In this document: positions 11,264 through 55,051 of the stretch, piece by piece | How the letters are laid out: each line of letters begins with the position of its first letter | Position numbering within the stretch: the first letter of the stretch is position 1 | Assembly: GCA_947460235.1 (NCBI GenBank) | Contig: CANHGK010000011.1 | Location: 1-64,000, forward strand | DNA: 64,000 bases | Direction: 5' to 3' | From: Paenibacillaceae bacterium | Lineage (GTDB): Bacteria > Bacillota > Bacilli > Paenibacillales > CANHGK01 | The notes under the pieces: model-generated | The model's input: the letters and a program-made list of their open reading frames with translations, nothing else | What the model was told of the DNA's origin: nothing | The model's database searches: none | Program-made: the position numbers and the translations under genes

Positions 11264-11337
11264 ATTTTAAATTGTTAAAAATAAACGCTATATGTCTTGT
11301 GCAATTATTCCGATAATTCTTAAAGGTGGTGATTTAC

Positions 11338-13266
11338 ATGGAAATTATTCGTGAAGGTTCAAATGCGCAAGAAGTGTTACAGATGGTGCTTTTAGAACAA
11401 GGTTGGTCGAAAGATCAAGTCGAAGTTACCATAATTCAAGAAGAAAAAGGCTCTTGGTTTCGTAAATCAAAACTTAAATTGAAAATTGTATATATTAAAA
11501 AGGATGACTCAACGAGACAACAGGTAGATCCAGAATGGTCGAATTCGGAGTGTAAAGATTGGATTTTCTTTATGAATCATCGATTGTATGTACTTCCAAC
11601 GTTCGATGTAAATTCTATTATCATTCACCCTACATCTTCAAGTCGATTGATGGTTGGTAATCGACCGGTGATCATCCCTGAATTATGGATCGAAGATCGA
11701 ACGGTATTTCGGTGGGAAAAACCAGCTTTGGAAGATCAACTCGATATCATTATTTCTCCGGATCAAATGATTGCAAAAATTCAATTTAAACAAGGAATGG
11801 GATTTGAATTATTTCCATATGCAAAATTCATTAAAAATGAGTTGCATGTTTTTTTTGAAGAGCGTTTTTTGTTTGATGAATCTTGGACTGTTGAAGAATT
11901 CAAAAGAATTTTAATAAAAAATGGGATCAAAAGCATTGTTGAAGAAACAAAAATCAAACAATTTATTGAGAATTCTACAGATTGGAATACCAACTGCGTG
12001 GTTGCGCTTGGAAGCCCAATGATACCTGGGATTTCAACGTCATTTGAATTAATTTCAAAACCAGAAATAATACCTAAAGTTTCAAATACAGAATCAACAC
12101 AAACAATCAATTATTACGGATTCTCTTCGATTCATACGGTGAAAGTTGGACAACCATTGTTGAAATTGATAACGAGAACATTAGGTGTTAGCGGTATTGA
12201 TGTATTTGGGCAAGAAATTCCAGCAACGGACGGCATTGAATATGAAGTTATTTTAGGTGAAAGTGTAAAATTATTGGACGACAAAGAGACTGTTGTATCG
12301 TGTCTCGATGGAATATTGAATGTTTCATTTCCGAATGTCTCTGTTTCGCCGATGTATGTAGTGAATGGCGATGTCGATCTTAAATCTGGCAGTATTCAGT
12401 TTAAGGGTAGTGTGATGGTGAACGGGAATGTCCGTGAAAATATGAAGATAGAAGCGACCGATCATGTAATCATCACAGGTACAGTTTCTGAAGCAACAAT
12501 AATTGCTGGATTGAATATTGAATTGCGCGGGAATGTTGTGATGAGTAAAGTGATTGCCGGGTATCCACATTACGGTAGATTATTTCATTTGTATTGGGCA
12601 AGACAAATGATCGAGCAATTAATTCAATTGATTTCCGAACGTGGAATTCATCACAATAAAACCGTAATTGAACATAGACATCTATTTGTGAAGCGTTGGT
12701 CTTTGGAAATTCAATCGGATGACTTCAAATCATTTAAGTCTCCTTGGATTGAACGAACGTTGCGGTGGATGAACGTTGCTCAGCAAGCGTGTTTAGGACA
12801 AATAAGTGGGAATACGACGGAAGAGTGGTTAATTGATGAAGGTATAGCCATTGAAGATTTGTTAGTATCGGAAAAAGATATGTTAACAAATATTAACGTA
12901 TATAATTCTCATTTGTCTTCATTATATTCTTCTGGTTCTGTTGAATTTAAAGGAAAAGGTGCATATTTATCGACGATCGTTGCCGGACACGAAATTATTA
13001 ACACAGAAGGTGATGGATTTATACGCGGTGGTAATTTGATTGCTGGTCAAGGTATTAAAGCGAAAGTTGTTGGAAGTCCAGCGGGTGTACATACAAATTG
13101 TATTGTATTGTCGAAATATGGAACATTGGATTTTGAACAAATTAATCCCGGTTTAAATACAACGCTAGGCACACATCGCAAATCTTTTACAGATAAATTA
13201 ATGTTTTGTCGAATCGCATATCAAGTCTCTTCGAATCAAATTGAATTAAAACCGTTAAAAAAATAA
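11338..13266 (+). CDS. FapA-like DUF342 protein with Jag_N-type head, copy 1
   Basis: The protein has 642 residues. The first ~50 (IIREGSNAQEVLQMVLLEQG, then EEKGSWFRKSKLKLKI) resemble the Jag_N domain of the RNA-binding protein KhpB/Jag. A ~170-residue middle region follows. The DUF342/FapA part starts near residue 221 (ALGSPMIPG), runs through the beta-helical core NGDVDLKSGSIQFKGSV (from ~343), and after a helical insert returns at ~520 with NVYNSHLSSLYSSGSVEFKG. FapA proteins have been linked to flagellar assembly and surface polymers, with no proven activity. ATG 11338 is chosen over the in-frame GTGs at 11326 and 11329 because AAAGGTGGTG is the ribosome site. The next gene is a paralogue. 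Confidence 0.8.
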   Translation: MEIIREGSNAQEVLQMVLLEQGWSKDQVEVTIIQEEKGSWFRKSKLKLKIVYIKKDDSTRQQVDPEWSNSECKDWIFFMNHRLYVLPTFDVNSIIIHPTSSSRLMVGNRPVIIPELWIEDRTVFRWEKPALEDQLDIIISPDQMIAKIQFKQGMGFELFPYAKFIKNELHVFFEERFLFDESWTVEEFKRILIKNGIKSIVEETKIKQFIENSTDWNTNCVVALGSPMIPGISTSFELISKPEIIPKVSNTESTQTINYYGFSSIHTVKVGQPLLKLITRTLGVSGIDVFGQEIPATDGIEYEVILGESVKLLDDKETVVSCLDGILNVSFPNVSVSPMYVVNGDVDLKSGSIQFKGSVMVNGNVRENMKIEATDHVIITGTVSEATIIAGLNIELRGNVVMSKVIAGYPHYGRLFHLYWARQMIEQLIQLISERGIHHNKTVIEHRHLFVKRWSLEIQSDDFKSFKSPWIERTLRWMNVAQQACLGQISGNTTEEWLIDEGIAIEDLLVSEKDMLTNINVYNSHLSSLYSSGSVEFKGKGAYLSTIVAGHEIINTEGDGFIRGGNLIAGQGIKAKVVGSPAGVHTNCIVLSKYGTLDFEQINPGLNTTLGTHRKSFTDKLMFCRIAYQVSSNQIELKPLKK

Positions 13267-13274
13267 TTTTCGAC

Positions 13275-13319
13275 AAAATCCCCCAACTTATTACAATAAA
13301 AGTGGTGGGGGTTTTATTG
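13275..13319 (+). terminator. Intrinsic terminator between the two FapA-like genes
   Basis: AAAATCCCCC (13275-13284) can pair with GGGGGTTTT after a loop of about 20 bases, followed by T-rich sequence. The stem is imperfect near the loop, but GC content and T tail are good. Confidence 0.7.
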
Positions 13320-13346
13320 TTTTGTATTCCTTTTGAATTATACGAA

Positions 13347-13355
13347 TGCTATAAT
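13347..13355 (+). promoter_or_regulatory. Extended -10 promoter of FapA-like copy 2
   Basis: TGCTATAAT is a perfect -10 hexamer with the extended TGn element. No good -35 is seen at 16-18 bases (TTCCTT is the best), which extended -10 promoters tolerate. It starts a leader of about 50 bases. Confidence 0.5.
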
Positions 13356-13410
13356 AAATGTATAAATTTTCTGAATTGTACATGCCTTAACATTTCTGGA
13401 GGTGAGTCCG

Positions 13411-15330
13411 ATGGATCTGATACGTGAAGGAAACACAATGGAAGAAGTTGTACAACTTGTGCTATTAGAAAACGGTTGGACCACGGACGATGTAGATATT
13501 GTGACCATTTCAGAAGAAAAAGGTTCATGGTTTAAAAAGGCAAAGGTCGTAGTTAAATTTATTGAAAAGAAAAAAGAAGAAGAATCGAGTTCAAAAACAG
13601 TTTGGTCATGTGAAGAATGTTCGGAATGGATTTTTTTTATGAATCATAAACTTACGGTTTTGGCAGATTTTCCATATCAATCGATTCTGGTTCATCCGTC
13701 ACCGACCCGAAAAGTTTGGATTGGTAATCGTCCCATTCTAATGCCTGAAATGATGTTAAATGATGGAGCTACAATTCATGAAAAATTGCTAGATTTAGAA
13801 GAATTACTAGATATTCATATCAGTTCTGATTTATTACAAGCGACAGTTTGCTTCCGAAATGATACTGGATATCGCCCCAAACCATACGCTAAATTAATGC
13901 ACAATGTGTTGCATATTTATTTTGAAGAAATACGTATCCCAGTAGATACATGGGATGTCGATCGAATCTTAGGTTTGCTTTTACAAAAAAATATTTTAAT
14001 TGGACATCGACCTGATATGATCAAAAAATGGTTAAAAGATCCGTCTAAGTGGTCTGAAGGTGTTGTTGCTGCAGAAGGCCGCCCTATGTTTCCAGGTAGA
14101 AATACGGAGTTCAAAATGGTTGTAGATTCTTCTAAAAATCAACGAATCGCCTCAACTGGAAGTAAAGAAACGGTTAAACATCATGGTTTTATTGATTTAA
14201 GAACGGTTCATGCAGGTCAAATGATCATGGAAGTATTACCAAGAACATTCGGGGTCGCAGGGACGAATTTAAAAGGTGAAAATATTCCCGCAGTTGATGG
14301 AATCGATGAAAAATTGGCACTTGGTAAAAATATTATTGCACCAGGAGATCAGCGCTATATTTTGGCTACGTGTGATGGTTTAGTTGAATATGTACATCCT
14401 GCAATTTCAGTTACACCATTGTATGTAATTAATGGGGATGTTGATCTCAAAACAGGAAGTATTAAATTTAATGGGTCGGTAATCGTCAAAGGTAACGTTC
14501 GCGAAGGGATGACGGTTGAGGCTGCTGAACACATCCAAGTGATGGGTATCGTTACCGAATCGACATTAATTGCTGGAAAATCGATCGAGGTTCGCGGTAA
14601 TGTTGTGATGAGTACGCTCACATCGGGAATTTCCCAGCAACCTGCAGTGAGAAGATGGTTGTGGATTCGACAAATGAATGATCAAATTATTCAAATCATT
14701 AACGATCGAACGAATCACACGAGTAAAGCGTCGATGGAACAACGCCAACATTTTTTGCTGAAATGGAAAGACGAAGGAAACGCAGAATGGTTTTTAAATC
14801 ATCCGTTTACTTGGGATGATCGGATTAATCGATGGGCACAATTTTGCTATAAAATGTGTAATGGTTATAGTGCTGGTGTTGCGAATGATGAGCAATTAAT
14901 TGAAGAAGGTTTGCAATTGGAATCTTTAATGTATGACCAAATTTATGAAAATTACAACATTAACGTTTACAATTCCCATATGTCCAATCTTTATTCATCT
15001 GGGAATGTCGCATTTGTAGGGAAGGGTTGTTATCTTTCTTTTGTGTGTGCACCACTCGAATTTATTGCAACAGAAGGAGAAGGATATATTCGCGGTGGAC
15101 ATATTTTTGCTGGTATTGGTATAAAGGCAAAAACAATTGGTTCTCCTGCGGGTGCCGCAACACATTGTGTGGTCAGTAATCGTACGGGGAATATTGATAT
15201 TGAACATTTGCATCCAGGTTTGCATGCATCGATTGGCCGGTCACGCAAAATATTTAATGATCAATTTTTACATTGTCGCGTTCATTTTCAATCGCATACA
15301 AAGCAGTTAGAACTTGTATCATCCGAGTGA
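13411..15330 (+). CDS. FapA-like DUF342 protein with Jag_N-type head, copy 2
   Basis: At 639 residues it is collinear with copy 1 along its whole length: head LIREGNTMEEVVQLVLLENG with EEKGSWFKKAKVVVKF; the shared ECSEWIFFMNHKL and GNRPI segments; FapA part from EGRPMFPGRNTEFKM; core NGDVDLKTGSIKFNGSV; and late segment NVYNSHMSNLYSSGNV. This points to tandem duplication followed by clear divergence. ATG 13411 is chosen because GGAGGTG overlaps the earlier GTG at 13402. Function is unknown. Its own terminator-promoter pair upstream suggests separate control from copy 1. Confidence 0.8.
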   Translation: MDLIREGNTMEEVVQLVLLENGWTTDDVDIVTISEEKGSWFKKAKVVVKFIEKKKEEESSSKTVWSCEECSEWIFFMNHKLTVLADFPYQSILVHPSPTRKVWIGNRPILMPEMMLNDGATIHEKLLDLEELLDIHISSDLLQATVCFRNDTGYRPKPYAKLMHNVLHIYFEEIRIPVDTWDVDRILGLLLQKNILIGHRPDMIKKWLKDPSKWSEGVVAAEGRPMFPGRNTEFKMVVDSSKNQRIASTGSKETVKHHGFIDLRTVHAGQMIMEVLPRTFGVAGTNLKGENIPAVDGIDEKLALGKNIIAPGDQRYILATCDGLVEYVHPAISVTPLYVINGDVDLKTGSIKFNGSVIVKGNVREGMTVEAAEHIQVMGIVTESTLIAGKSIEVRGNVVMSTLTSGISQQPAVRRWLWIRQMNDQIIQIINDRTNHTSKASMEQRQHFLLKWKDEGNAEWFLNHPFTWDDRINRWAQFCYKMCNGYSAGVANDEQLIEEGLQLESLMYDQIYENYNINVYNSHMSNLYSSGNVAFVGKGCYLSFVCAPLEFIATEGEGYIRGGHIFAGIGIKAKTIGSPAGAATHCVVSNRTGNIDIEHLHPGLHASIGRSRKIFNDQFLHCRVHFQSHTKQLELVSSE

Positions 15331-43005: not shown

Positions 43006-43056
43006 AAGACCATTGTTCAAATGTGCCATCTGGTCATTGAATAATGGTCTTTTTAG
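43006..43056 (+). terminator. Intrinsic terminator after the small hypothetical gene
   Basis: An 18-base arm starting AAGACCATTGTTCAA (43006 on) pairs with CATTGAATAATGGTCTT (43035-43051), with one bulge and one G-U pair, and ends in T residues. Confidence 0.88.
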
Positions 43057-43063
43057 ATTTTAA

Positions 43064-43094
43064 TTGGTCGTATTCTTACGTTCTCTGCTATACT
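43064..43094 (+). promoter_or_regulatory. Promoter of rpoN
   Basis: TGCTATACT (43086-43094) is an extended -10; TTGGTC (43064-43069) is a -35 at a long 19-base spacing. No -24/-12 element is seen here, so rpoN does not look self-activated. Confidence 0.5.
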
Positions 43095-43145
43095 TTAATT
43101 GTCAGAGTATTTCATGTTCTTATCCGATACGGGGAGGCGAGTCGT

Positions 43146-44531
43146 ATGGATTTTGGTATGAATTTATGGCAATTACCTGCAGTTCGTATGAAACTAAATC
43201 ATACCTTGCAACAATCAATTCAAGTGCTTCAATATTCCAGTGATGCATTACACGATTGGTTAGCGCAACAAATTCGGGACAATCCAATGTTGGATTGGAA
43301 TGAAAATGGCACGAAACCAACATGGGATTGGCAAACTCGCGGACATTTCCGCTGTGACTGGATGAACTCTAGAACAGTGGGCGGGGTACGAGAACGCAAT
43401 GATGATCAAGGACTTGCGGACTGGTGGATGCGAATACCTGATCATGAAAAGAAATTGCAAGACGACTTAAGGGAACAACTTCACATGATTGAAGGACTCT
43501 CGAAGTCAGAGCGAATGATTTGTGAACTGATGATTGATGCACTCGACGATGATGGATATTTACGGATTTCATTTGATGATTTATTTCAACATCAACACAT
43601 ACCTGACCGATTTGCTAGGTCGTGTCTTAGTACGCTTCAAACTCTTGAACCCATTGGTGTCGGTGCGCGTTCCATTGAAGAGTGTATTGCACTTCAGTTG
43701 CGTAAATTAAATGCACCCGAATTTGTCATACAAGCTGTTGAAAAGCAAATGAATCAATTATCTCCACCGCACTGGAAAACCTTAATTCGAAAAAAGCAAT
43801 TTACAAAAGCAGAACTCGAAGAGATTTGGCATTGGCTTGGACAAACCGACCCAAGACCCGGAATCAGAATCGGGAGCGAAGAAATTACGTATGTAACGCC
43901 CGATGCATGGGTAATCAAAGAACAAGGTCAGTGGGTCATCCGATGGAATCCACGTGCGATTCCGCAACTTCAAATTTCTTCTCAATGGGCACAATGGATT
44001 AACGGACATAAGCAACCTGAGCCAGCAGAAAAAGAATCACTTGAGTATTTGCAGGAAAAAAGAATACTCAGCAAACGAATTACACATCATTTGCATATGC
44101 GTGCATACACGCTCCAGCGCGTTGTTTTAGCGATATTAACCAGACAAGAAGCTTTTCTTGAACGCGGTATTGATGCGATTCAAGCACTTGAAATGCAAGA
44201 AATTGCAGATGAACTTGAATTACACGAATCCACAGTAAGTAGATCCGTGCAAGGAAAATGGATTGCAACACCTTGGGGCACACAACCACTGCGAATGTTT
44301 TTTCATAGTGGTATTCGTCAGCGTAGCGGCAAACGCATGAGTCCCCAACAAATTCAAGCGCAAATCAAACTTGTTTTAACAAAACAACCTACCAATTCAC
44401 GGATGTCTGATCAAATGGTTGTTGAACAGTTACAACTTGCCGGAATTCATGTGGCAAGGAGAACCGTGAATAAATATCGCCACCAACTAGGGATTCCATG
44501 TTCGTATGACCGTTTTGATGGTGCAGAATAA
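43146..44531 (+). CDS. rpoN: RNA polymerase sigma-54 factor
   Basis: Sigma-54 directs RNA polymerase to -24/-12 promoters and needs an AAA+ activator. The Gln-rich region I (LNHTLQQSIQVLQYSSDALHDWL), the core-binding domain (~90-270) and the DNA-binding part are all present. The latter includes ALEMQEIADELELHESTVSRSVQGKW and the RpoN box ARRTVNKYRHQLGIP near residue 437. 461 residues is usual for Bacilli. ATG 43146 follows GGGGAGG. It is convergent with ablB. Two -24/-12 promoters lie 0.9 kb away, which suggests a direct functional link. Confidence 0.96.
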   Translation: MDFGMNLWQLPAVRMKLNHTLQQSIQVLQYSSDALHDWLAQQIRDNPMLDWNENGTKPTWDWQTRGHFRCDWMNSRTVGGVRERNDDQGLADWWMRIPDHEKKLQDDLREQLHMIEGLSKSERMICELMIDALDDDGYLRISFDDLFQHQHIPDRFARSCLSTLQTLEPIGVGARSIEECIALQLRKLNAPEFVIQAVEKQMNQLSPPHWKTLIRKKQFTKAELEEIWHWLGQTDPRPGIRIGSEEITYVTPDAWVIKEQGQWVIRWNPRAIPQLQISSQWAQWINGHKQPEPAEKESLEYLQEKRILSKRITHHLHMRAYTLQRVVLAILTRQEAFLERGIDAIQALEMQEIADELELHESTVSRSVQGKWIATPWGTQPLRMFFHSGIRQRSGKRMSPQQIQAQIKLVLTKQPTNSRMSDQMVVEQLQLAGIHVARRTVNKYRHQLGIPCSYDRFDGAE

Positions 44532-44540
44532 ACAATTTGT

Positions 44541-45404
44541 TTATAACCATTTGAGCCATAAATTCATGTTTTCAAAACCGTTTTCCATACGGCAATTGTT
44601 CGCAAATCGTCCGCGATATTGGTAATTCAAATCAAACATCGTCGCATTCATTGCGCCGATACCGGCTCGGCAAAGCGCATAGGTTGTAATCCAACCGAAT
44701 TGACGACCGTGTGTTTCAAGGTTTAAAATCAGCTCGCGCGTCCATCCCATCCCGCGATAGGCAGGATCTGTCGCACAGTCTGTAATTTCAGCATTTTTTA
44801 ATTCATGATCAGGTTCTGCGGCAGCAGCACTTACCAATTTTCCTGCATCATTAAATACGGCAAAAAAAAATGTACCTGTTTGCATTCGCTCAGAAAGATA
44901 CTCGGGATCTGAAACAGGAGTTGGATACACCGGAAATACACTTGCATACAATTCTGCTAGCATTGACGCATCAGAGACATCGCAAAGTCTCGTGTGAAAA
45001 GGCGGCTGAATCGTTTGCAAGTTTTTTTTGTTTCTGCTTAAGATTCCGCGGAGTATTACATCTTCTTCCGCCCACGATACATGATTGCGCCGGCCACTCT
45101 CTATATATCTACAGACCCCCCAAGCAAGTTCACCAGCAAAATATCCATCCCATATGCCTTCAATAACATAACCATTCGTTAGCCAAATTGCCGCATCCGA
45201 GGGTCGGATTTTGGCAATGCATTTTTGCGCTGAGATCGATACCGCCGCTTCCTCGAGTAAATACAATAATGTAGTTGCATCGCCATGACCATTATCTAAA
45301 CGTACACGTTGATTGTAGTAATCCAGGCAAATGGATGCGGATGCTTGTTCGGTGCACACGTGAATTGTCTCATAATATGATTTGCTCCATTTCATGTTGG
45401 TCAT
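44541..45404 (-). CDS. ablB: Putative beta-lysine N6-acetyltransferase
   Basis: This 287-residue GNAT protein resembles AblB/YodP, which acetylates the 6-amino group of beta-lysine made by lysine 2,3-aminomutase. The N-terminal half (~1-135) is the family-specific domain; the C-terminal half holds the acetyl-CoA fold, with ITDCATDPAYRGMGWTRELI as the pyrophosphate-binding loop. GGGAG lies 9 bases before ATG 45404. The gene is divergent from the yodT-like operon and preceded by a sigma-54-type promoter. Lysine 2,3-aminomutase, its usual neighbour, is not in this window. Confidence 0.85.
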   Translation of the reverse strand: MTNMKWSKSYYETIHVCTEQASASICLDYYNQRVRLDNGHGDATTLLYLLEEAAVSISAQKCIAKIRPSDAAIWLTNGYVIEGIWDGYFAGELAWGVCRYIESGRRNHVSWAEEDVILRGILSRNKKNLQTIQPPFHTRLCDVSDASMLAELYASVFPVYPTPVSDPEYLSERMQTGTFFFAVFNDAGKLVSAAAAEPDHELKNAEITDCATDPAYRGMGWTRELILNLETHGRQFGWITTYALCRAGIGAMNATMFDLNYQYRGRFANNCRMENGFENMNLWLKWL

Positions 45405-45446
45405 CTCAGATCACTCCCTGATGTTTGTGCATATACATATCATTTT

Positions 45447-45463
45447 AGCAACTCAGATGCCAA
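45447..45463 (-). promoter_or_regulatory. Sigma-54 (-24/-12) promoter of ablB
   Basis: On the minus strand the site reads TTGGCATCTGAGTTGCT, against the consensus YTGGCAC-N5-TTGCW. The GG and GC dinucleotides have the exact 10-base spacing; only the last base of TGGCAC differs (T for C). The start point would be near 45436, giving a leader of ~33 bases to ablB. Confidence 0.65.
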
Positions 45464-45480
45464 ACTTAATTGTGTTTTTC

Positions 45481-45497
45481 TTGGCACTCGATTTGCT
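45481..45497 (+). promoter_or_regulatory. Sigma-54 (-24/-12) promoter of the yodT-to-ALDH operon
   Basis: TTGGCACTCGATTTGCT is a full match to the -24 (TGGCAC) and -12 (TTGCT) elements at the obligatory spacing. The start point would be near 45508, about 28 bases before the first ATG. The -24 elements of this promoter and the divergent one are ~20 bases apart, back to back. No sigma-A promoter of similar quality is present in the gap. Confidence 0.78.
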
Positions 45498-45535
45498 TTA
45501 TGTAGCATAAGTCGATCCAAATGGAGGCGATGGCA

Positions 45536-46858
45536 ATGTCACATTTGATTAAACCACTGCTAGGAAGTAAGTTGCCAGAAATCGCATATGGTAAAGGGAT
45601 GTATTTGTATGATTCAAATGGAAAAAAATACATTGATGGTTGTTCCGGGGCGGTTACGGCGAATATTGGTCACGGCGTTCCTGAAGTCATTGAAGCGATT
45701 CATCAACAAATGCAGCACATTAGTTTTGTATATCGATCGCAATTTACGAACCGTTGTGCTGAGCAATTGGCTGAAAAACTACATCAGAAGGCAAGTTCGC
45801 TTGGTGAGTACGAAGTGTTTTTTGTGAATAGTGGATCCGAAGCTACTGAAACCGCGTTAAAAATGGTATGGCAAGCAGCTCAGGAACGCGGGGAATACGA
45901 GCGGGATATTATTATTTCTAGGCAAACAAGTTATCACGGCATTACACTCGGAGCGCTGGCGCTATCGATGCATGAACAAAGACGGAAACGATTTACAAAA
46001 CAGATGATTAATGTTCCTTCGTTTCCTGTTCCGCATTGCAGTCAGTGTCCCTTAGGAAAACAGTTTCCCGCGTGTGCGCATGCTTGTTTAGATCCACTTG
46101 AACAATTGATCAAGGAACTTGGACCGCACCGAATTGCCGCAGTAATTACTGAACCAATAGTTGGTGCAGCCGGAGGTGCCATTGTGCCTCCAGATGGATA
46201 CGAAGCGCGATTGAGAGCGATTTGTACCAAGTATCAAATTTGCTGGATTGATGATGAAGTAATGACTGGGATGGGACGTACGGGAAAAACATTTGCAGTT
46301 GAATATAGTGACGCTGCGCCAGATATTATTTTGCTAGGTAAAGGCTTAGCTGCTGGATATGCACCGCTCGCTGCAGTGCTCGTTCGTTCATCGTTGATAG
46401 ATTCCATTCGCAAAGGTTCGAAAGTGATTATGGCCGGTCATACACACTGTGCAAATCCAATAAGTGCTGCAGCAGGGCTTGCCGTTCTAGAATATATTGA
46501 TACGCATCAATTGATTCAAAATGCGTTCGTTCAAGGTGATCGTATCAAAACGGAATTAACAAAATTAATGCATACATCACCGCTTATCAAGGAAGTGCGA
46601 GGGCGCGGACTCTTGATTGGTGTGGAATGGAATCCTGAGTACATTGGCATTCATGGAAAACGATTCACGCCGAATGATTTAATTTCCAGTGCCTTTGAAA
46701 TGGGCATGTTACTATATCCGGCCGGAGGAGCAAACGACGCTGCGCTTCCAAGTGTTATCGTGGCACCAGCGCTAACAATTACAGACCAAGATGCAATTGA
46801 AATCATCGATTGGTGGAAAACGTGGATTACTTATCTAGAACTGTTTTTGGAGGGATGA
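45536..46858 (+). CDS. yodT: YodT-like class III aminotransferase
   Basis: This fold-type I PLP aminotransferase has 440 residues, close to B. subtilis YodT. The PLP lysine is K269 in LLGKGLAAGYAPLAAV; IDDEVMTGMGRTGK (~238-251) holds the pyridine-binding Asp; FFVNSGSEATETALKM is the phosphate-binding segment. An extra Cys-rich loop, CSQCPLGKQFPACAHAC (~165-181), is a family feature. Inferred substrate: N6-acetyl-beta-lysine, giving 3-oxo-6-acetamidohexanoate. ATG 45536 is 8 bases after GGAGG; the earlier ATGs at 45521 and 45530 are too close. It is the first gene behind the sigma-54 promoter. Confidence 0.85.
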   Translation: MSHLIKPLLGSKLPEIAYGKGMYLYDSNGKKYIDGCSGAVTANIGHGVPEVIEAIHQQMQHISFVYRSQFTNRCAEQLAEKLHQKASSLGEYEVFFVNSGSEATETALKMVWQAAQERGEYERDIIISRQTSYHGITLGALALSMHEQRRKRFTKQMINVPSFPVPHCSQCPLGKQFPACAHACLDPLEQLIKELGPHRIAAVITEPIVGAAGGAIVPPDGYEARLRAICTKYQICWIDDEVMTGMGRTGKTFAVEYSDAAPDIILLGKGLAAGYAPLAAVLVRSSLIDSIRKGSKVIMAGHTHCANPISAAAGLAVLEYIDTHQLIQNAFVQGDRIKTELTKLMHTSPLIKEVRGRGLLIGVEWNPEYIGIHGKRFTPNDLISSAFEMGMLLYPAGGANDAALPSVIVAPALTITDQDAIEIIDWWKTWITYLELFLEG

Positions 46859-46861
46859 GTG

Positions 46862-47506
46862 ATGCATAAGGATAAATGGACGACGGCGATGGGAGCAATT
46901 CGTTCGATTCATTCTGGCCAAACCGTGATGATCGGTGGATTTGGTGGAACTGGTACTGCCCATAATTTGATTGATGCACTACTTCAAACGGATATTCATG
47001 ATTTGACAGTAATATGCAATGATGGTGGGTTTCCGACTAAAGGAATTGGCAAGTGGATTGCTGATCGCAGAGTTCGAACATTAATTGCAACACATGTTGG
47101 GAATAATCCGCTCGTGACTGATCAAGTTAATGAAGGTTTTTTAACGTTGCAATTGCACCCGCAAGGTATTTTTGCTGAAAAAATCCGTGCTGGTGGCGCT
47201 GGGTTGCTTGGGATTCTCGTTGAAGAACGTTGGGCAACACCGGGAGCGACATTTGTCCATGAACTTGGAGGATATTTTGAACACTCACTTACAGCAGATG
47301 TCGCACTCATTGGAGCACAAACGGCTGATAATGCCGGAAACCTCGTGTACTTACAAACGGAGCGCAATCATAATCCAATGATGGCTATGGCAGCACATAC
47401 GTCGATCGCAGAAGTGCGCGTGCATGAATCGAATATGTTAGATCCAGAGCAAATCATTACACCTGGTTGTTGGATTCAGCAGCTGGTGTTGCGAGGTGAT
47501 CACTAG
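46862..47506 (+). CDS. 3-oxoacid CoA-transferase, subunit A
   Basis: This 214-residue alpha subunit belongs to the CoA-transferase family I (AtoD/ScoA type; YodR/YodS in B. subtilis). The CoA-binding glycine loop is VMIGGFGGTGTAHNLIDALL (~22-41), with the later GGAGLLGILVEERWATPG segment. GGAGGG precedes ATG 46862 by 7 bases. It overlaps subunit B by one base. Likely role: activate 3-oxo-6-acetamidohexanoate to its CoA ester, taking CoA from the 4-acetamidobutyryl-CoA formed by thiolysis or from another donor. The substrate is inferred from context. Confidence 0.87.
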   Translation: MHKDKWTTAMGAIRSIHSGQTVMIGGFGGTGTAHNLIDALLQTDIHDLTVICNDGGFPTKGIGKWIADRRVRTLIATHVGNNPLVTDQVNEGFLTLQLHPQGIFAEKIRAGGAGLLGILVEERWATPGATFVHELGGYFEHSLTADVALIGAQTADNAGNLVYLQTERNHNPMMAMAAHTSIAEVRVHESNMLDPEQIITPGCWIQQLVLRGDH

Positions 47507-48093
47507 TGGATCTTCAACTGGAACAACGAATGTTAACAACTGCAGCTTCAATCGTGAAACCTGGGATGATAATCAATCTAGGATTTGGGTTGCCAACGAA
47601 ACTGATGGCTTTTGTCATGAACATTCCAGATGTGTTTGTTCATGCTGAAAATGGAATCCTAGGACTTGGACCTCCTCCTGCCGCTGGTCAAGAGCAAAGC
47701 GGGCTGATTAATCCTGCGGGTGAAGCTGCAAGTGCAATGGACGGATGCAGTTATTTTGATAGCAGTCATTCTTTTTCAATGATACGCCGGGGATGTATTG
47801 ATATTGCTTTTCTTGGCGCATTGCAAGTCGGTTCAAACGGTGATTTGGCAAGTTGGAAAGTTCCTGGTGCGCGCATTAGTGGGATGGGCGGTGCACGTGA
47901 ATTAGCCTATGGAGCAAAATCCGTCGTCGTGCTCATGAATCATACGGATCGACATGGTCATCTAAAAATGATGCATCGTTGTACGTATCCTTTGACCGCA
48001 TCAGGTGTTGTCCATTATGTAATCACTGAAAAGGGATTTTTTCATATTCAAAACGATGATTTTCAACTGGTTGATTCGTTTGAGATGCCGTAA
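47506..48093 (+). CDS. 3-oxoacid CoA-transferase, subunit B
   Basis: This beta subunit carries the catalytic glutamate E48 in HAENGILGLGP, which forms the covalent CoA thioester. It also has the IDIAFLGALQVGSNGDLASWKVPG segment and SGMGGARELAYGAKSVVVLM. At 195 residues it is shorter than the usual ~215-220, lacking some of the C-terminal end. The GTG start overlaps the subunit A stop, indicating coupled synthesis of the two chains. Confidence 0.87.
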   Translation: MDLQLEQRMLTTAASIVKPGMIINLGFGLPTKLMAFVMNIPDVFVHAENGILGLGPPPAAGQEQSGLINPAGEAASAMDGCSYFDSSHSFSMIRRGCIDIAFLGALQVGSNGDLASWKVPGARISGMGGARELAYGAKSVVVLMNHTDRHGHLKMMHRCTYPLTASGVVHYVITEKGFFHIQNDDFQLVDSFEMP

Positions 48094-48111
48094 AAAATGG
48101 AGGCGAGGACA

Positions 48112-49293
48112 ATGACAAATGGTACACGTCAAGCGGTTCTTGTCGATGGCATCCGAACGGTTGTTGGAAAAGCTGGAAAATCATTAAGAAAACGTTCTGC
48201 AGTTCAATTGCTCGAACACGTCATTGTCTCGATCTGTAAAAAAACAAATATTTCTACCCAGGAAGTTGAACAATTTATAATTGGTCACGGCTATGTGCAT
48301 GGAAACGGATTAAATAGTGCTCGTCAAGCATCACTTCGAGCAGGCGCTCGGCAAGAAAGTTCTGGGCAAGTAGTTATCCAAGCATGCGGTTCCAGTTTAC
48401 AAGCGATTTGGCAAGCAGTACTAGCAGTCAACCATGAACCAGAACTGATCACAATTGCCGGCGGTGTGGAATCAATGAGTACGATACCTCATTTGTTGAA
48501 TATGAGGACTTCTGATCTTTATGGCCATCAACAGTTACGGGATGCCTTGATCGCAGATGGACTGGAATGTTCAGTAAGTCATTATTTGATGGGACAACTC
48601 GCGGAAAAAATAGCTTCAAAATATGAAATTAACCGCACTGATCAAGATGAATACGCATTACATTCGCATCAAAAAGCATCACGAGCTGAACAATTAGGTC
48701 ATTTCAATGCTGAACGAATGATTTTCCCGGAATTAAGTGCCGATGAATCCATTCGACACGATGCATCGCTCGAAAAATTAATGAAACTGCCAACGATTTT
48801 TGAAGAGTACGGAACGGTTACCCCTGGAAATGCTTGTCCGATGAATGATGCTGCTTGTGTGTTACTTGTCATGGATGAACAGATTGCATTGGATCACGGG
48901 TATCAAGATTATTTTCGCATCATAGGCCAGGCGGTTTGCGGTGTTGATCCGATCTGGATGGGACTTGGCCCCGTTCCGGCAACGAATAAAGCATTATTCC
49001 GTGCAGGCTTAACGCTACAAGACATCGATTGGATTGAATTAAATGAAGCATTTGCCGCGCAGGTGCTTGGTGTTATCTGTGAGTGGGAACAATTCGTTCC
49101 AGACGTCGAATCAAAAATTAATCCACTCGGTGGAGCAATTGCGCTAGGGCATCCCGTAGGAGCAACTGGTGCGATTTTAGTGAATCGTGCGATGCAAGGA
49201 TTACGTAGAACACAAAAACAATATGGATTAATTACATTATGTATGGCTGGAGGCATGGGCTGGTCGATGATCATTGAGCGAATCACGCGCTGA
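48112..49293 (+). CDS. Thiolase (acetyl-CoA acyltransferase)
   Basis: This 393-residue thiolase has all catalytic residues: nucleophile C92 in QACGSSLQAIW, NEAFAAQ, H347 in GHPVGATGA and C377 in LCMAGGMG. The loop after the nucleophile (CGSS) departs from the common CGSG/CASG. In this operon it would cleave 3-oxo-6-acetamidohexanoyl-CoA with CoA to acetyl-CoA and 4-acetamidobutyryl-CoA, which is inference. From memory, the B. subtilis yodPQRST-kamA cluster does not have this gene. ATG 48112 is used because GGAGGCGAGG lies before it and covers the ATG at 48097. Confidence 0.9.
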   Translation: MTNGTRQAVLVDGIRTVVGKAGKSLRKRSAVQLLEHVIVSICKKTNISTQEVEQFIIGHGYVHGNGLNSARQASLRAGARQESSGQVVIQACGSSLQAIWQAVLAVNHEPELITIAGGVESMSTIPHLLNMRTSDLYGHQQLRDALIADGLECSVSHYLMGQLAEKIASKYEINRTDQDEYALHSHQKASRAEQLGHFNAERMIFPELSADESIRHDASLEKLMKLPTIFEEYGTVTPGNACPMNDAACVLLVMDEQIALDHGYQDYFRIIGQAVCGVDPIWMGLGPVPATNKALFRAGLTLQDIDWIELNEAFAAQVLGVICEWEQFVPDVESKINPLGGAIALGHPVGATGAILVNRAMQGLRRTQKQYGLITLCMAGGMGWSMIIERITR

Positions 49294-49309
49294 TTGGAGG
49301 TGACACCTG

Positions 49310-50593
49310 ATGGAGCAACTAAGAATGAACATTCATCAATGGTTAATTGAGCATCAATGTTCGATCATCGATCATTTACAACGATTAATTAAAGCCGCCG
49401 GACATCCCGATCAACCAGAAAACCACGTTCAAGATGTTTTTATCAATCATTGGAACCAGAATAATTATGACGTCCGAGTACATCCCTTAAATGAAGTAGA
49501 TTGGACGAAGATTCCAATATTATATTTAGCCAAACCAGTGGAACAACTCAATCAATTATCAAATGTATCCGCGCTCATCCGCGGAAGCGGTGGTGGTCGT
49601 TCACTACTACTAAACGGTCATGTGGATGTCGTGCCAGTAGGTAAAAGAGAACAATGGTACGTTGATCCGTTTGGCGGAGAACTGATTGATGGAAAGGTTT
49701 ATGGACGAGGAGCAACAGATATGCTCGGGGGCATTGTATCGATGGAATATGCACTCGAGTCGATTCGAAAATGTGGAATTAAGTTAAAAGGTGATGTGAC
49801 CATATGTGCGGTTGTCGAAGAGGAAAGCGGAGGCGCAGGAAGTGCTGCTTCTGTTTTACAAGGGATAACTGCAGATGCTGCAATAATTGCTGAACCAACG
49901 GCTTGCCAATTGTATCCGATCCAACAAGGCTCACAATGGTTTCGAATCCATATCCGCGGAAAAGGAGCCCATGGTGGGACTAGGGATCTAGGCGTTAGTG
50001 CCATTGAAATCGGGATGAATGTGATTAAAGCAATTCATCGTTTGGAAGCAAACAGGCATGAACGAGGATTTCAAGCACATTTACACCGCGCAAATGGAAT
50101 TGCATATCCAATAAACATTGGAACATTTCATGCAGGGAATTGGCCATCGAGTGTGGCGGATGAAGCAATTTTGGAAGGACGATATGGATTAATGCCGGGT
50201 CAAAGCATGCAGGCGGCATTTGCTGAAATGGAAGATGTTATATTGAAATTGAATGCGCAGGATAAATGGTTAGAAGAACATCCAATTACATTGGAATGGT
50301 ATGGTGCGAGATGGTTACCGAATGCATTGGAAGCTGAGCATCCATGGTATGACGTGTGGAAGCAACTTCCGATTCGATTGGGACGGGATATTAAAGCAGC
50401 ACCATGGGGTACGGATGCAGGTTGGTTAGCTCATATCGGAAATATTCCGGTGATGGTGTACGGTCCCGGAACTCCTGAACAAGCACATCAACCGAACGAA
50501 TCCATTTTAATTTCAGATGTAATCCTTGCAGCAGAAGAAATCGCAATTGCAATGATGCTTTGGTGCGGTTATGACATTGACCAACAGGAGTGA
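49310..50593 (+). CDS. yodQ: YodQ-like M20 deacetylase
   Basis: This 427-residue M20 (ArgE/DapE/ACY1) metallohydrolase has metal ligands H104 and D106 in NGHVDVVPVG, Asp in GRGATDMLGG, Glu in VVEEESGGAG (catalytic plus ligand) and His in PEQAHQPNE near the C terminus. The dimerisation domain (~205-320) is intact (GKGAHGG). It matches YodQ, assigned to N-acetylated intermediates of the beta-lysine pathway. Here it should remove acetate from 4-acetamidobutyrate to give GABA. GGAGGTGA precedes the ATG. Confidence 0.87.
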   Translation: MEQLRMNIHQWLIEHQCSIIDHLQRLIKAAGHPDQPENHVQDVFINHWNQNNYDVRVHPLNEVDWTKIPILYLAKPVEQLNQLSNVSALIRGSGGGRSLLLNGHVDVVPVGKREQWYVDPFGGELIDGKVYGRGATDMLGGIVSMEYALESIRKCGIKLKGDVTICAVVEEESGGAGSAASVLQGITADAAIIAEPTACQLYPIQQGSQWFRIHIRGKGAHGGTRDLGVSAIEIGMNVIKAIHRLEANRHERGFQAHLHRANGIAYPINIGTFHAGNWPSSVADEAILEGRYGLMPGQSMQAAFAEMEDVILKLNAQDKWLEEHPITLEWYGARWLPNALEAEHPWYDVWKQLPIRLGRDIKAAPWGTDAGWLAHIGNIPVMVYGPGTPEQAHQPNESILISDVILAAEEIAIAMMLWCGYDIDQQE

Positions 50594-50598
50594 TGAAC

Positions 50599-51927
50599 AT
50601 GCGAAAATTCATCAACATGCGAACAGAACTACCAGGCCCGATTGCAAAGTCGATGTTAGACCGTCGAATTGCTGCGGTTGCTCGCGCCCCTTACCATACG
50701 TTGCTTAGTTTTATTCATCACGCACATGGAGCAATCTTGACTGATGTAGATGGGAATACGTTTATTGATTTTGCGGGTGCGATCGGAACACTAAATGTAG
50801 GGCATTCACCAAAACAAGTTACGGATGCCATTCATGCTCAAATTGATCAATACATTCACACCTGTTTTCATGTTGTGATGTACGAACCGTATATTGAACT
50901 TGCTGAAACATTGAATAAACTTACGCCAGGAGATGTTGAGAAAAAAACGATGTTCTTTAATAGTGGTGCAGAAGCCATTGAGAACGCGATCAAAGTAGCT
51001 AAACGCTTTACAAAACGGCGTGGTGTCATTTCATTTGAACGTGGTTTTCATGGTCGCACATATATGGCACTCTCTTTAACAAGTAAAAATAAGCCGTACA
51101 AAACAGGTTTAGGTCCATTTTTAACGGACACATATAAATGTCCATATCCAGATTATTATCACATGGGAAGTTTGAGCGAGGATGCGCTCGATGATCATTT
51201 GTTGCAACGAATTGAACAAATGTTTTTGACCGAAATTCCGGTGTATGATATCGCGTGTGTTGTCATGGAACCAGAACAAGGCGAAGGCGGATTTATCGTG
51301 CCTTCTCAAAAATTTGTCAAAGGAATCAAAGCACTGTGTGAACGATATGGAATGCTATTTATAAGTGATGAAATTCAAAGTGGATTTGGCAGAACCGGAA
51401 AATTCTTTGCAATTGAACACCATGATGTCGTACCAGATCTGATCACGATGTCCAAATCGATTGCTGCAGGTATGCCACTAAGTGCGTTAACTGGTCGTGC
51501 AGATGTGATGGATGCTGCAGATATTGGTGAAATCGGAGGGACGTATGGTGGGAGCCCAGTATCCTGTGCTGCTGCACTTGAAGTAATTAAATTGATTCAT
51601 TCCGAAAACTTACTTGAACGCGCGGTTGAACTCGGTAACCAAGTTCGTCTTCGATTGACTGGTTTGCAAAATACACATGATTTTATTGGAGATATACGAG
51701 GACTAGGTTCGATGCTCGCAATTGAAATTGTAAAAGATCCAACAACTAAAATGCCTGATTCAGAGCGAACGAATCGAATCATTAAATATGCACTTGATCA
51801 TGGATTAATAATTTTAACTGCAGGAATTTATGGTAATGTCATTCGTTTATTGTATCCTTTAGTCATTAGCGATGAACAATTGCAGGAAGGTTTGGATGTG
51901 CTCGCGGAAGCAATTGAGCATTCCTAA
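50599..51927 (+). CDS. gabT: GabT-like 4-aminobutyrate aminotransferase
   Basis: This is a second class III PLP aminotransferase in the operon, 442 residues. The PLP lysine is K286 in TMSKSIAAGMPLSALTG; FNSGAEAIENAIKVAK and FISDEIQSGFGRTGKF are the cofactor motifs; EPEQGEGGFIVP and GGTYGGSPVSCAAALEV are typical of GABA transaminases. Expected reaction: GABA plus 2-oxoglutarate to succinate semialdehyde and glutamate. ATG 50599 is 8 bases after CAGGAG. Position after the deacetylase and before an aldehyde dehydrogenase supports the GABA assignment. Confidence 0.87.
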   Translation: MRKFINMRTELPGPIAKSMLDRRIAAVARAPYHTLLSFIHHAHGAILTDVDGNTFIDFAGAIGTLNVGHSPKQVTDAIHAQIDQYIHTCFHVVMYEPYIELAETLNKLTPGDVEKKTMFFNSGAEAIENAIKVAKRFTKRRGVISFERGFHGRTYMALSLTSKNKPYKTGLGPFLTDTYKCPYPDYYHMGSLSEDALDDHLLQRIEQMFLTEIPVYDIACVVMEPEQGEGGFIVPSQKFVKGIKALCERYGMLFISDEIQSGFGRTGKFFAIEHHDVVPDLITMSKSIAAGMPLSALTGRADVMDAADIGEIGGTYGGSPVSCAAALEVIKLIHSENLLERAVELGNQVRLRLTGLQNTHDFIGDIRGLGSMLAIEIVKDPTTKMPDSERTNRIIKYALDHGLIILTAGIYGNVIRLLYPLVISDEQLQEGLDVLAEAIEHS

Positions 51928-51957
51928 ACAATTCTCCTGTGACAAAGGAGGTTGGTC

Positions 51958-53394
51958 ATGAAAAACGAACAAGGGATCATTGGACTTTTTATTGACGGAA
52001 ATTACTTTTTTACGGAGCAAACGGTAGAGCATCGAAATGTTTATCATCAAACATTGCTTGGTCACTTGTCACAAGCGGACGCAACACATCTTAATCTGGC
52101 AGTGGAAGCGGCGAGCAATGCCCAAAAGCAATGGGCGATGTTACCAGCCTACCGTAGATCGGAATTACTTTTTGCGCTAGCTGAGGAACTGCAACGGAAT
52201 ACAGAGGAAGCGGCGATGTTGATCGTTGCGGAAACAGCGAAGCCGATTACGCTTGCACGCGCAGAAATTATGCGTGCAGTGACGACGTATCGTTTATCTG
52301 CGGAAGAAGCAACGCGATTGCAAGGGGAAACGCTTGTCATGGATGCCGTGCGCGGTGGTGAAGGAAAGTCGGCATTTACCGTATTAGAACCCGTTGGCGT
52401 CATCGCAGCGATCACACCATTTAATTTTCCGTTTAATTTGGTTGCACACAAAATTGGACCAGCTTTGGCTGCAGGAAATGCAGTGATCATCAAGCCTTCA
52501 AGTCAAACACCATGTTGCGCACTTTGGATTGCTGAAGCGGCAAAACGCGTTGGAATTCAAGATGGTGTAATTAATGTAATCATAGGATCAGGTGGGATCA
52601 TCGGGGATGCGTTGGTTACACACAAAGGTATTCAAATGATCAGTTTTACTGGAAGTTTCGATGTTGGGCTTCACATACGAAGCATCGCTGGATTGCGTAA
52701 AACGCTGTTAGAGCTCGGTTCAAATAGTGCGGTGATTTTGGACCAAAGTACAGATATCAATCTAATCGCCCCGAAACTTGCATCAGGTGCATGTGCGTTT
52801 TCTGGTCAAGTATGTATTTCCATTCAGCGAATCGCTGTCCACGAATCGCAACATGATCAATTGTGTTCACTTCTTAAAACCATATTTTCAGGATGGATAG
52901 TTGGTACTGATCCGGCTGAATCAAATACATCAATGAGTAAAATGATTAATTCTAGTGCGTTAATCAAAGCAAAAAATGCAGTTCAACAAGCAAAAAATGC
53001 AGGTGCCACAGTTATTTGCGGCGATGATTATCACGAAATGTCGATGTGGCCGACGGTATTAACGGATTGTCCATCGCATTTAGATATCGTACAACAAGAG
53101 ATGTTTGCGCCTATCGTTGTTATCCAAAAATATCGCGATATTCAAGAGGCAATCGACTGGGTAAATGATTCGAGGTATGGACTTAATACCGGATTTTATT
53201 CAAATAATTTGAAACATGTATGGCATGCCATTCGTACGATTAAATCTGGTGCATTACTTATTAATGAAATTCCAACGTATCGGGCAGATCATATGCCTTA
53301 TGGCGGAGTGAAAGATAGTGGTACTGGAAAAGAAGGAGTAGCATATGCGGTTCGTGAAATGTGTCATGAAAAATTAATTGTAATTCAACCATAA
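51958..53394 (+). CDS. Aldehyde dehydrogenase, probable succinate-semialdehyde dehydrogenase
   Basis: This 478-residue NAD(P)-dependent aldehyde dehydrogenase has Asn in TPFNFPFNL, general base E252 in LELGSNSAV and nucleophile C286 in SGQVCISIQR; FTGS marks the cofactor loop. The C-terminal PYGGVKDSGTGKEGVAYAVREM is standard. Following gabT, it most likely oxidises succinate semialdehyde to succinate. The overall sequence resembles the broad aldehyde dehydrogenases of Bacilli as much as GabD, so the substrate is inferred. ATG 51958 is 6 bases after AAAGGAGG. It is the last gene of the operon. Confidence 0.85.
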   Translation: MKNEQGIIGLFIDGNYFFTEQTVEHRNVYHQTLLGHLSQADATHLNLAVEAASNAQKQWAMLPAYRRSELLFALAEELQRNTEEAAMLIVAETAKPITLARAEIMRAVTTYRLSAEEATRLQGETLVMDAVRGGEGKSAFTVLEPVGVIAAITPFNFPFNLVAHKIGPALAAGNAVIIKPSSQTPCCALWIAEAAKRVGIQDGVINVIIGSGGIIGDALVTHKGIQMISFTGSFDVGLHIRSIAGLRKTLLELGSNSAVILDQSTDINLIAPKLASGACAFSGQVCISIQRIAVHESQHDQLCSLLKTIFSGWIVGTDPAESNTSMSKMINSSALIKAKNAVQQAKNAGATVICGDDYHEMSMWPTVLTDCPSHLDIVQQEMFAPIVVIQKYRDIQEAIDWVNDSRYGLNTGFYSNNLKHVWHAIRTIKSGALLINEIPTYRADHMPYGGVKDSGTGKEGVAYAVREMCHEKLIVIQP

Positions 53395-53406: not shown

Positions 53407-53455
53407 AAAGCTTTCCATGAACAGTTGAACTGTCCTTAGGAAAGCTTTATTTTTA
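53407..53455. terminator. Terminator between convergent transcription units
   Basis: AAAGCTTTCC (53407-53416) pairs with GGAAAGCTTT (53439-53448). An inner ACAGT-TGA-ACTGT hairpin and T-rich sequence follow on the plus strand; the minus-strand flank TTTATTTA is also T-rich. It probably serves both directions. Confidence 0.8.
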
Positions 53456-55051
53456 TTGAATATTGACCGTCAATTGGAATTCTGGATGTTGTTTAAACGA
53501 AAAATTATATGAACCGACCGTGGGAAATAATTGTTCATACATTCCTGCGTTGTTATCGACGGATTGGTCCGGTAATAATTTATTGGTTTCAACAAGTGTT
53601 AATTTACCTTCGGATACATTAATAAATTGAACCGTAGATCCAACAATTAAATTTACGACGGTATCAGCAAACCCTGAATCCATGATCATAACACTTCTTA
53701 CTTCAGGTTTAGGTTGGGATTGAGAGGCCGCGTAACCACCGCCGTAGCCACCACCACCGCCGTAGCCACCACCTCCGCCGTAGCCACCACCTCCGCCGTA
53801 GCCACCACCTCCGCCATAGCCACCACCTCCGCCATAGCCACCGGAGGATCCAGAGTTTGCACTGTTCCCTTGGTTGGATGCGGTCATCCATGCCGGTACT
53901 GATTCAGTAGCAACCGGTGTTGGCGCTGGGGTTTCAGTTGCTATTGGAGTTGGAGAAGGAGTTTCTGTTGGTTTAGGTGTAATTACAGGTTTTGGTGTGT
54001 TTACAGGTTTTGGTGTTTCAACACCGGTATTGGATGAATCTGTATTTAATGCATTTGTTTGTTGTGGTATGGTCGGTATTTGAGTTGCGGTTGTGACAAT
54101 TGTTGCGGTTGGAGCTTGAGTTGGTGAAGTTGTATTCGTTGATAATGGGTTCGGTGTCACAACGATAAGTACAGGTGTATTTGTTGGTTTTGGTGTAGAT
54201 GTCGGTGTTAATGTTGGTTTTGGTGTTGAAGTAGGCATTGGTGTAGGTGTTGCCGATGGTGAATAATCAAAGTGAATAGAAGTGCTTACCAATGGCCATA
54301 AGGTAATATGATCGTTTTTTACAACGGTAATTTTTAAATCATAATTTCCAGCGGATAAACCAGGCCATGAAATTGATTTCGTATACGTATATTTTTTTTC
54401 AGTCAATCCTGTATTATTATTTCGGAGTTCTAAAAGAAAATGACCTTCACCAGGAACAGAATTACGAAATAAATGGTAGTCGCGTAAATGAAGGTTATCG
54501 ACTATAATAGAAAAGTTCAAGGGATTGTTTGTCATTATTTTTGACGGATTGATCCCATATAAATGAAGTTTAACATCTGTAGATTTGGATTGTACGTTTA
54601 TCGAATCACTCAATTCATCAGTACTCCAAACGACACCTAGTACATTTGCAATCCAACCAAAGTCAATTGCAATATTCGGCGCATCATAGTAGACAGAAAT
54701 TTGATTTAATTTTGTATGGCCATTCATTTTTGCAATTTTATTTTGTGCATCGATCATTACAAATACATTTCCCTTTTGTAATTTAATCAAATAAGGATAT
54801 TTTTTATTTACATCAATTGAAACTCCAATTGCTTTTAAATTGGTCACTGGTATAAAGAAATGATTTCCTTGTTTCCAGCCTTGCCACATTTGGTCCTGAG
54901 AATCGATATTCATATGTACAACCTGACCTTGCATAGCTACGTTTAATTTTGTCCAAGCTGTATTTGCTGCAATACCAATACTCGATAACCATGAACCGGC
55001 AATTAACGCTGTAGCAAGAATGGGAATGATCGATTTTAGTAATTTTTGCAT
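53453..55051 (-). CDS. Secreted stalk-domain protein with Gly-Tyr repeats and cupredoxin-like end
   Basis: This 532-residue exported protein begins with a signal peptide (1-29). Residues ~40-155 resemble the copper amine oxidase N-like (stalk) domain: FFIPVTNLKAIGVSIDV and FGWIANVLGVVWSTDELSDSINV. Residues ~160-262 form a beta domain. A Thr/Pro linker (265-385) repeats TPTPxPT and TPKP units. Residues 404-441 are (GGGGYG)-type hexapeptides. The last 80 residues read as a cupredoxin fold, with VNLIVGSTVQFINVSEG and GSYNFSFKQHPEFQLTVNI. Only one of the usual His/Cys/His/Met copper ligands is recognisable. It looks cell-wall associated. AAAGGAGG precedes the ATG. Function unknown. Confidence 0.75.
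   Translation of the reverse strand: MQKLLKSIIPILATALIAGSWLSSIGIAANTAWTKLNVAMQGQVVHMNIDSQDQMWQGWKQGNHFFIPVTNLKAIGVSIDVNKKYPYLIKLQKGNVFVMIDAQNKIAKMNGHTKLNQISVYYDAPNIAIDFGWIANVLGVVWSTDELSDSINVQSKSTDVKLHLYGINPSKIMTNNPLNFSIIVDNLHLRDYHLFRNSVPGEGHFLLELRNNNTGLTEKKYTYTKSISWPGLSAGNYDLKITVVKNDHITLWPLVSTSIHFDYSPSATPTPMPTSTPKPTLTPTSTPKPTNTPVLIVVTPNPLSTNTTSPTQAPTATIVTTATQIPTIPQQTNALNTDSSNTGVETPKPVNTPKPVITPKPTETPSPTPIATETPAPTPVATESVPAWMTASNQGNSANSGSSGGYGGGGGYGGGGGYGGGGGYGGGGGYGGGGGYGGGYAASQSQPKPEVRSVMIMDSGFADTVVNLIVGSTVQFINVSEGKLTLVETNKLLPDQSVDNNAGMYEQLFPTVGSYNFSFKQHPEFQLTVNIQ
53731..53846 (-). repeat. 18-bp tandem repeats encoding GGGGYG
   Basis: About six 18-bp periods encode Gly-Gly-Gly-Gly-Tyr-Gly on the minus strand; the units differ from each other at only a few positions. 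Such repeats can change copy number by slippage without breaking frame. Confidence 0.92.

Follow-up and report, generated by a model that had tools for sequence, protein, structure and literature searches.

Genes of the kinds studied here have been described in Bacillus as kam, gab and yod sets. In Bacillus thuringiensis, kamA is under sigma-54 and the activator KamR, and later under sigma-K (PMC4428206, citing Zhang et al. 2014), and gabT and gabD are clustered separately, with GabR as an activator of their own (PMC4279683). Lysine 2,3-aminomutase and 4-aminobutyrate aminotransferase are among the sigma-54-enriched genes of Bacilli in a 2025 regulon survey (PMC12316311). In Bacillus subtilis, KamA is active in vitro, the physiological roles of KamA and YodT are listed as unknown, and yodT and kamA are listed as SigE-dependent (PMC6522883). 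Here we analyze a set of eight genes at positions 44541-53394 of a 64,000-nucleotide stretch of DNA (hereafter, the window) from a spore-forming Paenibacillaceae bacterium (assembly GCA_947460235.1, contig CANHGK010000011.1, here C11). The locus joins the known kam, gab and yod pieces, the linkage to sigma-54 being the new part, and we think it very probable that it serves sigma-54-controlled breakdown of lysine through acetylated beta-lysine.

All eight open reading frames are intact. Families were called by profile searches against curated cut-offs (TIGRFAM/NCBIfam, PRK and Pfam models), and at the level of sequence they are unambiguous.

44541..45404, minus strand: ablB (yodP-like), predicted beta-lysine N6-acetyltransferase of the GNAT type (TIGR03827, 237 bits; cut-off 205)
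45536..46858, plus strand: yodT-like class-III aminotransferase, proposed N6-acetyl-beta-lysine transaminase (PRK06917, 536.5; cut-off 535)
46859..47506, plus strand: coenzyme A (CoA)-transferase subunit A, yodR/S-like (TIGR02429, 158 bits, cut-off 128.5; PF01144)
47506..48093, plus strand: CoA-transferase subunit B with active-site ENG (TIGR02428, 214 bits, below the cut-off of 243.6; PF01144)
48097..49293, plus strand: thiolase, proposed to act on 3-oxo-6-acetamidohexanoyl-CoA (TIGR01930, 379 bits; cut-off 241)
49310..50593, plus strand: yodQ-like M20 metallo-deacetylase, proposed 4-acetamidobutyrate deacetylase (PRK06915, 447; cut-off 428)
50590..51927, plus strand: gabT, predicted 4-aminobutyrate aminotransferase (TIGR00700, 586 bits; cut-off 507)
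51952..53394, plus strand: aldehyde dehydrogenase, proposed to act on succinate semialdehyde (PF00171, 451 bits)

A preliminary description of this DNA had arranged eight genes of these families into one beta-lysine chain and had reported the expected catalytic residues; the profile searches and motif checks bear out both statements. The aminotransferases have their pyridoxal-phosphate lysines, the thiolase carries CGSS, NEAF, GHP and C motifs, and the aldehyde dehydrogenase carries SGQVC and LELG. In the M20 enzyme, H104, D106, D137, E171, E172, E195 and H393 are present, and the metal-binding and catalytic residues are invariant in alignment A1. The gabT product is the sole match to TIGR00700 above cut-off in the genome. 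The seven plus-strand genes (45536-53394) overlap their neighbors or lie at most 24 bp from them and hence look like one operon. To this extent the earlier proposal of a single operon stands, but ablB is divergent, on the minus strand, with ∼130 bp between the likely ablB and yodT starts, and kamA lies on another contig. We place the start of YodT at 45536, which is probably correct rather than 45521, because GGAGG precedes it at about 45524-45528. The acetyltransferase, deacetylase, CoA-transferase, aminotransferase and KamA families are the same as those of B. subtilis yodPQRST-kamA. As the description had noted, the B. subtilis set covers only part of the route; it lacks gabT, the aldehyde dehydrogenase and the thiolase, and it is under the sporulation factor sigma-E.

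In the route that we propose, KamA would convert lysine to beta-lysine, and AblB would acetylate this at N6 to give N6-acetyl-beta-lysine. Transamination by the YodT-like enzyme would yield 3-oxo-6-acetamidohexanoate, which the CoA-transferase would activate to its CoA ester and the thiolase would split into acetyl-CoA and 4-acetamidobutyryl-CoA. The M20 enzyme would then hydrolyze 4-acetamidobutyrate to 4-aminobutyrate (GABA) and acetate, GabT would convert GABA to succinate semialdehyde, and the aldehyde dehydrogenase would complete the chain to succinate. The acetyl group may serve as a temporary protecting group, as free 6-amino-3-oxohexanoate should, on chemical grounds, close to a pyrroline, and the acetyl-CoA used by AblB would be recovered at the thiolase step. 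The net reaction would be lysine plus two 2-oxoglutarate to succinate, acetate, two glutamate and NAD(P)H. The preliminary description had called the chain complete; the gene set is nearly so, but the description passed over the release of CoA from 4-acetamidobutyryl-CoA. This is probably accomplished by the CoA-transferase, whose CoA would most likely come from 4-acetamidobutyryl-CoA; since no ATP would then be spent, this is the most economical answer. Alternatively, the deacetylase itself could cleave the thioester. We infer the substrates of all the enzymes, as well as the CoA donor, the inducer and the activator's mode of action.

A similar route is said to operate in a Pseudomonas, in which degradation of N6-acetyl-beta-lysine was reportedly described by the Barker laboratory, between the late 1970s and 1981, as enzyme activities (EC 2.6.1.65 and EC 3.5.1.51). 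The intermediates leading to GABA and succinate are reportedly the same, and the deacetylase is said to act also as a thioesterase on the CoA ester. We know of no genes assigned to these Pseudomonas activities.

A gene for the first step is absent from the window locus. The preliminary description had held that the proposal would fail if the genome lacked a lysine 2,3-aminomutase. Family and pattern searches of the genome (2.72 Mb in 42 contigs, 99.2% complete) gave one strong match, a KamA of 471 residues on contig C26 (C26:9890-11305; TIGR00238, 452 bits) with a LAM_C domain. It scores 565 bits against the Clostridium subterminale lysine 2,3-aminomutase 2A5H and keeps the radical-SAM CxxxCxxC motif (as CSMYCRYC), GGGGK, QCDLS and VVDAPG, including the pyridoxal-phosphate lysine and both substrate-aspartate motifs. 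KamA and a CoA-transferase are also common to the clostridial fermentation of lysine through 3,5-diaminohexanoate, which might be used instead. We consider this extremely unlikely and rejected it: family search found no match in the genome to PF05853, the 3-keto-5-aminohexanoate cleavage enzyme, and an acetyltransferase and a deacetylase have no place in that route.

Matching predicted sigma-54 promoters are shared by kamA, ablB and the operon. Back-to-back sites of the −24/−12 type, TGGCACTCGATTTGCT and TGGCATCTGAGTTGCT, occupy the gap between ablB and yodT, and the genome's single rpoN match is convergent with ablB across a gap of 10 bp.

43044..44531, plus strand: rpoN, sigma-54 factor (TIGR02395, 348 bits; Pfam AID, CBD and DBD domains; RpoN box ARRTVNKYR); the true start is probably downstream of the first possible one
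45447..45462, minus strand: predicted sigma-54 −24/−12 promoter of ablB, TGGCATCTGAGTTGCT; equivalent sites occur upstream of ablB in relatives
45482..45497, plus strand: predicted sigma-54 −24/−12 promoter of the seven-gene operon, TGGCACTCGATTTGCT, a perfect match to consensus; equivalent sites occur upstream of yodT in relatives
C26:11329-11344: predicted sigma-54 −24/−12 promoter of kamA, TGGCATGACATTTGCT, 24 bp upstream of the kamA start

Each of the three units (kamA, ablB and the operon) thus has a TGGCAY-N5-TTGCW site 24-43 bp ahead of its predicted start. Genome-wide, TGGCAYN5TTGCW occurs at 16 sites, compared to 3 for a reversed control pattern, and the presence of sites at the expected place in all three units is far beyond chance. 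The remaining sigma-54-like sites are mostly intragenic and were set aside. Two others may be mentioned in their own right. One (C4:154318-154333; L011:3019-3034) lies ∼124 bp ahead of an etfB-etfA-fixC-fixX operon (L011:3158-6703); if it is real, the sigma-54 regulon would have these electron-transfer flavoprotein genes as its main additional member. A second (C24:31944-31959; L020:3045-3060) lies ∼460-490 bp ahead of a gene for a PrkA-like serine kinase, a distance that makes it doubtful.

Common control bears on the purpose of the pathway. N6-acetyl-beta-lysine is an osmolyte made in methanogens by homologues of KamA and AblB. A paper on archaeal osmoregulation mentions kamA and ablB frequently (PMC11337218). 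The two enzymes could likewise make a compatible solute here, which the operon would merely recycle. However, with synthesis and breakdown genes under the same type of promoter and a single activator, this would amount to a futile cycle, and kamA and ablB in Bacilli mostly adjoin the breakdown genes, so we regard a role in osmoprotection as very unlikely.

Breakdown of lysine through acetylated beta-lysine is also the interpretation favored by the relatives. Close homologues of the M20 enzyme (43-45% identity) were found in 4 of 60 relatives, in every case inside the same gene cluster. An order-wide sample of 250 genomes yielded ablB above cut-off in 41 genomes (42 loci), and at no fewer than 32 of these loci (i.e. 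at least 32/42) rpoN and ablB are convergent and no more than about 60 bp apart; those lacking an adjacent rpoN belong mostly to one Paenibacillus tyrfis/elgii-type group. The arrangement rpoN-ablB-yodT-CoA-transferase-yodQ-gabT-aldehyde dehydrogenase, faced by kamA and an activator gene, recurs at 20 loci in addition to the 4 found earlier, and in G006 and G112, among other relatives, kamA is joined to the locus. A sigma-54 site precedes 17 of 18 kamA genes of relatives and, in most, ablB or yodT. The comparison of gene neighborhoods suggested in the preliminary description also came out in its favor: among 80 Bacilli loci that hold the deacetylase gene, taken from a scan of named genomes, most combine yodT, the CoA-transferase and yodQ with ablB, and many add kamA and the activator. 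Physical linkage of kamA is common rather than universal, several of the 80 loci lacking it as the window locus does. Thiolase, gabT and aldehyde dehydrogenase occur together in P. tyrfis, P. elgii, P. oleatilyticus, P. tianmuensis and Lihuaxuella thermophila; hence the completeness of the window operon is shared, not unique. L. thermophila (L117) and P. tyrfis (L141) even have the same order, yodT-CoA-transferase-thiolase-yodQ-gabT-aldehyde dehydrogenase, and kamA, ablB and the activator gene are close by, although there kamA and the activator are in the same locus as the operon, and loci of the P. tyrfis type have an activator with a helix-turn-helix and no rpoN next to ablB. Collectively, the shared sigma-54 promoters and the clustering of the same genes in dozens of Bacilli genomes lend support to catabolism of acetylated beta-lysine, which this gene context, as read from sequence, strongly supports.

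Two observations on these loci stand apart. A small open reading frame with CxxC pairs (YokU-like) lies between ablB and yodT in L055, L056, L059, L065, L066 and L039 and is absent from the window. At a second locus of G228 (L057), ablB, kamA, rpoN, the activator and a thiolase stand in a row, the rpoN and activator frames each being split in two; the assembly is of low completeness.

Of the proteins encoded in the genome, a single one qualifies as a true sigma-54 activator (198 bits to PF00158, versus 32 bits for the next match). Its gene (C26:11388-12647) lies directly upstream of kamA, separated by 82 bp, and the product has PAS, AAA+ and lid domains. A PAS-type activator adjacent to kamA and in the same direction, with kamA behind a −24/−12 promoter, recalls the kam locus of B. 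thuringiensis. The present genome differs in that gabT, the aldehyde dehydrogenase and the thiolase are inside the operon, rpoN is linked to ablB, and the activator lacks a helix-turn-helix. In relatives, the activators linked to kamA have 481-497 residues, with a Fis-type helix-turn-helix (HTH_8) at the C-terminal end; in the 419-residue activator of the window genome, a domain search found neither HTH_8 nor another DNA-binding domain, and the 82 bp before kamA leave no space for one downstream. A C-terminal helix-turn-helix that binds an upstream sequence, a trait of the B. thuringiensis type, is missing from the activator of this genome. On the DNA side, a palindrome close to TGCAAAAnnTTTTGCA occurs in several relatives at a distance of about 60-110 bp from the ablB/yodT promoters, whereas a mismatch-tolerant scan of the window promoters found nothing under 5-6 mismatches. 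The kamA promoters of relatives mostly lack the palindrome as well, and the strict pattern matched two loci only. One caveat here is that the motif was picked by eye in the relatives and then scanned with mismatches, which makes the P values there circular; hence only the contrast between relatives and window is informative.

We suggest that kamA, ablB and the operon are transcribed from their sigma-54 promoters by the RpoN encoded next to ablB together with the PAS-AAA+ activator encoded ahead of kamA, the latter probably acting from solution. Loss of the DNA-binding domain would be tolerable because the genome encodes no other such activator; most simply read, an activator that stands alone has no further need to find a particular promoter. 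A precedent is CtcC of Chlamydia, a sigma-54 activator without a DNA-binding domain (PMC7482065). Like CtcC, the present activator keeps its AAA+ domain, lacks a C-terminal DNA-binding domain and, here, is the sole activator in the genome; unlike CtcC, which is of the response-regulator type, it carries a PAS sensor, and its gene lies with those for lysine catabolism.

Several findings weigh against a complete, sigma-54-controlled lysine route. On the regulatory side, the activator has GAFTGS in place of GAFTGA, so its function may be reduced. In a tree of the window RpoN with 15 ablB-linked and 20 unlinked RpoNs of relatives, the linked sequences form one clade (97/89) and the window RpoN joins their side at 94/86, but on a branch of length 2.7, so that its placement is not firm. 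GAFTGS and the long RpoN branch make decay a live alternative, in which the lysine route is real and the sigma-54 part is degenerate, activator and fast-evolving RpoN alike, and another factor drives the genes. Loss of the helix-turn-helix would fit such decay, as would the reading of B. thuringiensis kamA by sigma-K late in sporulation (PMC4428206). Yet all three promoters are intact, one of them perfect, as are Walker A and B, the arginine-finger region and the RpoN box, and the frames are open. We consider decay unlikely, though the least unlikely of the alternatives to the main reading.

On the metabolic side, CoA-transferase subunit B falls short of its specific model, and the aldehyde dehydrogenase is below the cut-off of every specific aldehyde dehydrogenase model (for TIGR01780, 289.7 bits versus 646). 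Its assignment to the general family made earlier is upheld; the curated models do not extend this to succinate semialdehyde, but that role is still plausible from its linkage to gabT. In addition, the thiolase is missing from most of the related loci. CoA-transferase, thiolase, GabT and aldehyde dehydrogenase all belong to broad families, and with two of the proteins under their specific cut-offs, one could suppose that the operon serves to break down different acetylated or amino compounds (4-acetamidobutyrate derived from acetylputrescine, GABA or 3-oxoacids) and that its link to beta-lysine is loose. Against this, sigma-54 control is common to the operon, kamA and ablB, and kamA is physically linked in relatives; we give this possibility very little weight. 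Finally, the lysine uptake genes that the preliminary description had suggested looking for did not turn up: of the three importer families searched, PF13520, PF00324 and PF00497, none has a match in the genome. Use of external lysine is thus without support from these families, and peptides, or the cell itself, may instead supply the lysine that is degraded. A spore-former without these three families, which comprise the common permeases for amino acids and the binding proteins for polar amino acids, is in itself unusual.

Elsewhere in the window, the minus strand at 53453-55051 encodes a protein that is predicted to be secreted, contains GYGGGG repeats and a linker rich in Pro and Thr, and has no Pfam or NCBIfam match. 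At 11326-15330 there are two tandem proteins of ∼645 residues that are alike along their length.

With the only rpoN and the only activator both beside pathway genes, the sigma-54 apparatus of this organism may serve mainly the lysine pathway. We lean, by a modest degree, toward a wider proposal in which the entire apparatus serves mainly this one catabolic pathway here, and likely also in a few relatives that have a single rpoN and a single activator (exactly one activator was found in G006, G112, G141 and G176, and G112, G176 and G141 are such cases); rpoN belongs to the pathway neighborhood; the activator of the window lineage does without DNA binding and an upstream site; and the YodT-like and YodQ-like genes encode N6-acetyl-beta-lysine transaminase and 4-acetamidobutyrate(-CoA) deacetylase. 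If true, this would tie the poorly characterized yodP/Q/R/S/T genes, which recur dozens of times across Bacilli, to a single lysine route that is complete and stoichiometrically closed, and it would supply candidate genes for activities that, to our knowledge, were described without sequences. It would also mean that the gene for a sigma-54 factor travels with a catabolic pathway. The activator, in turn, would be a Gram-positive sigma-54 activator that is the last one left and has lost DNA binding, and thus a simple natural case for asking what the DNA-binding domain is for.

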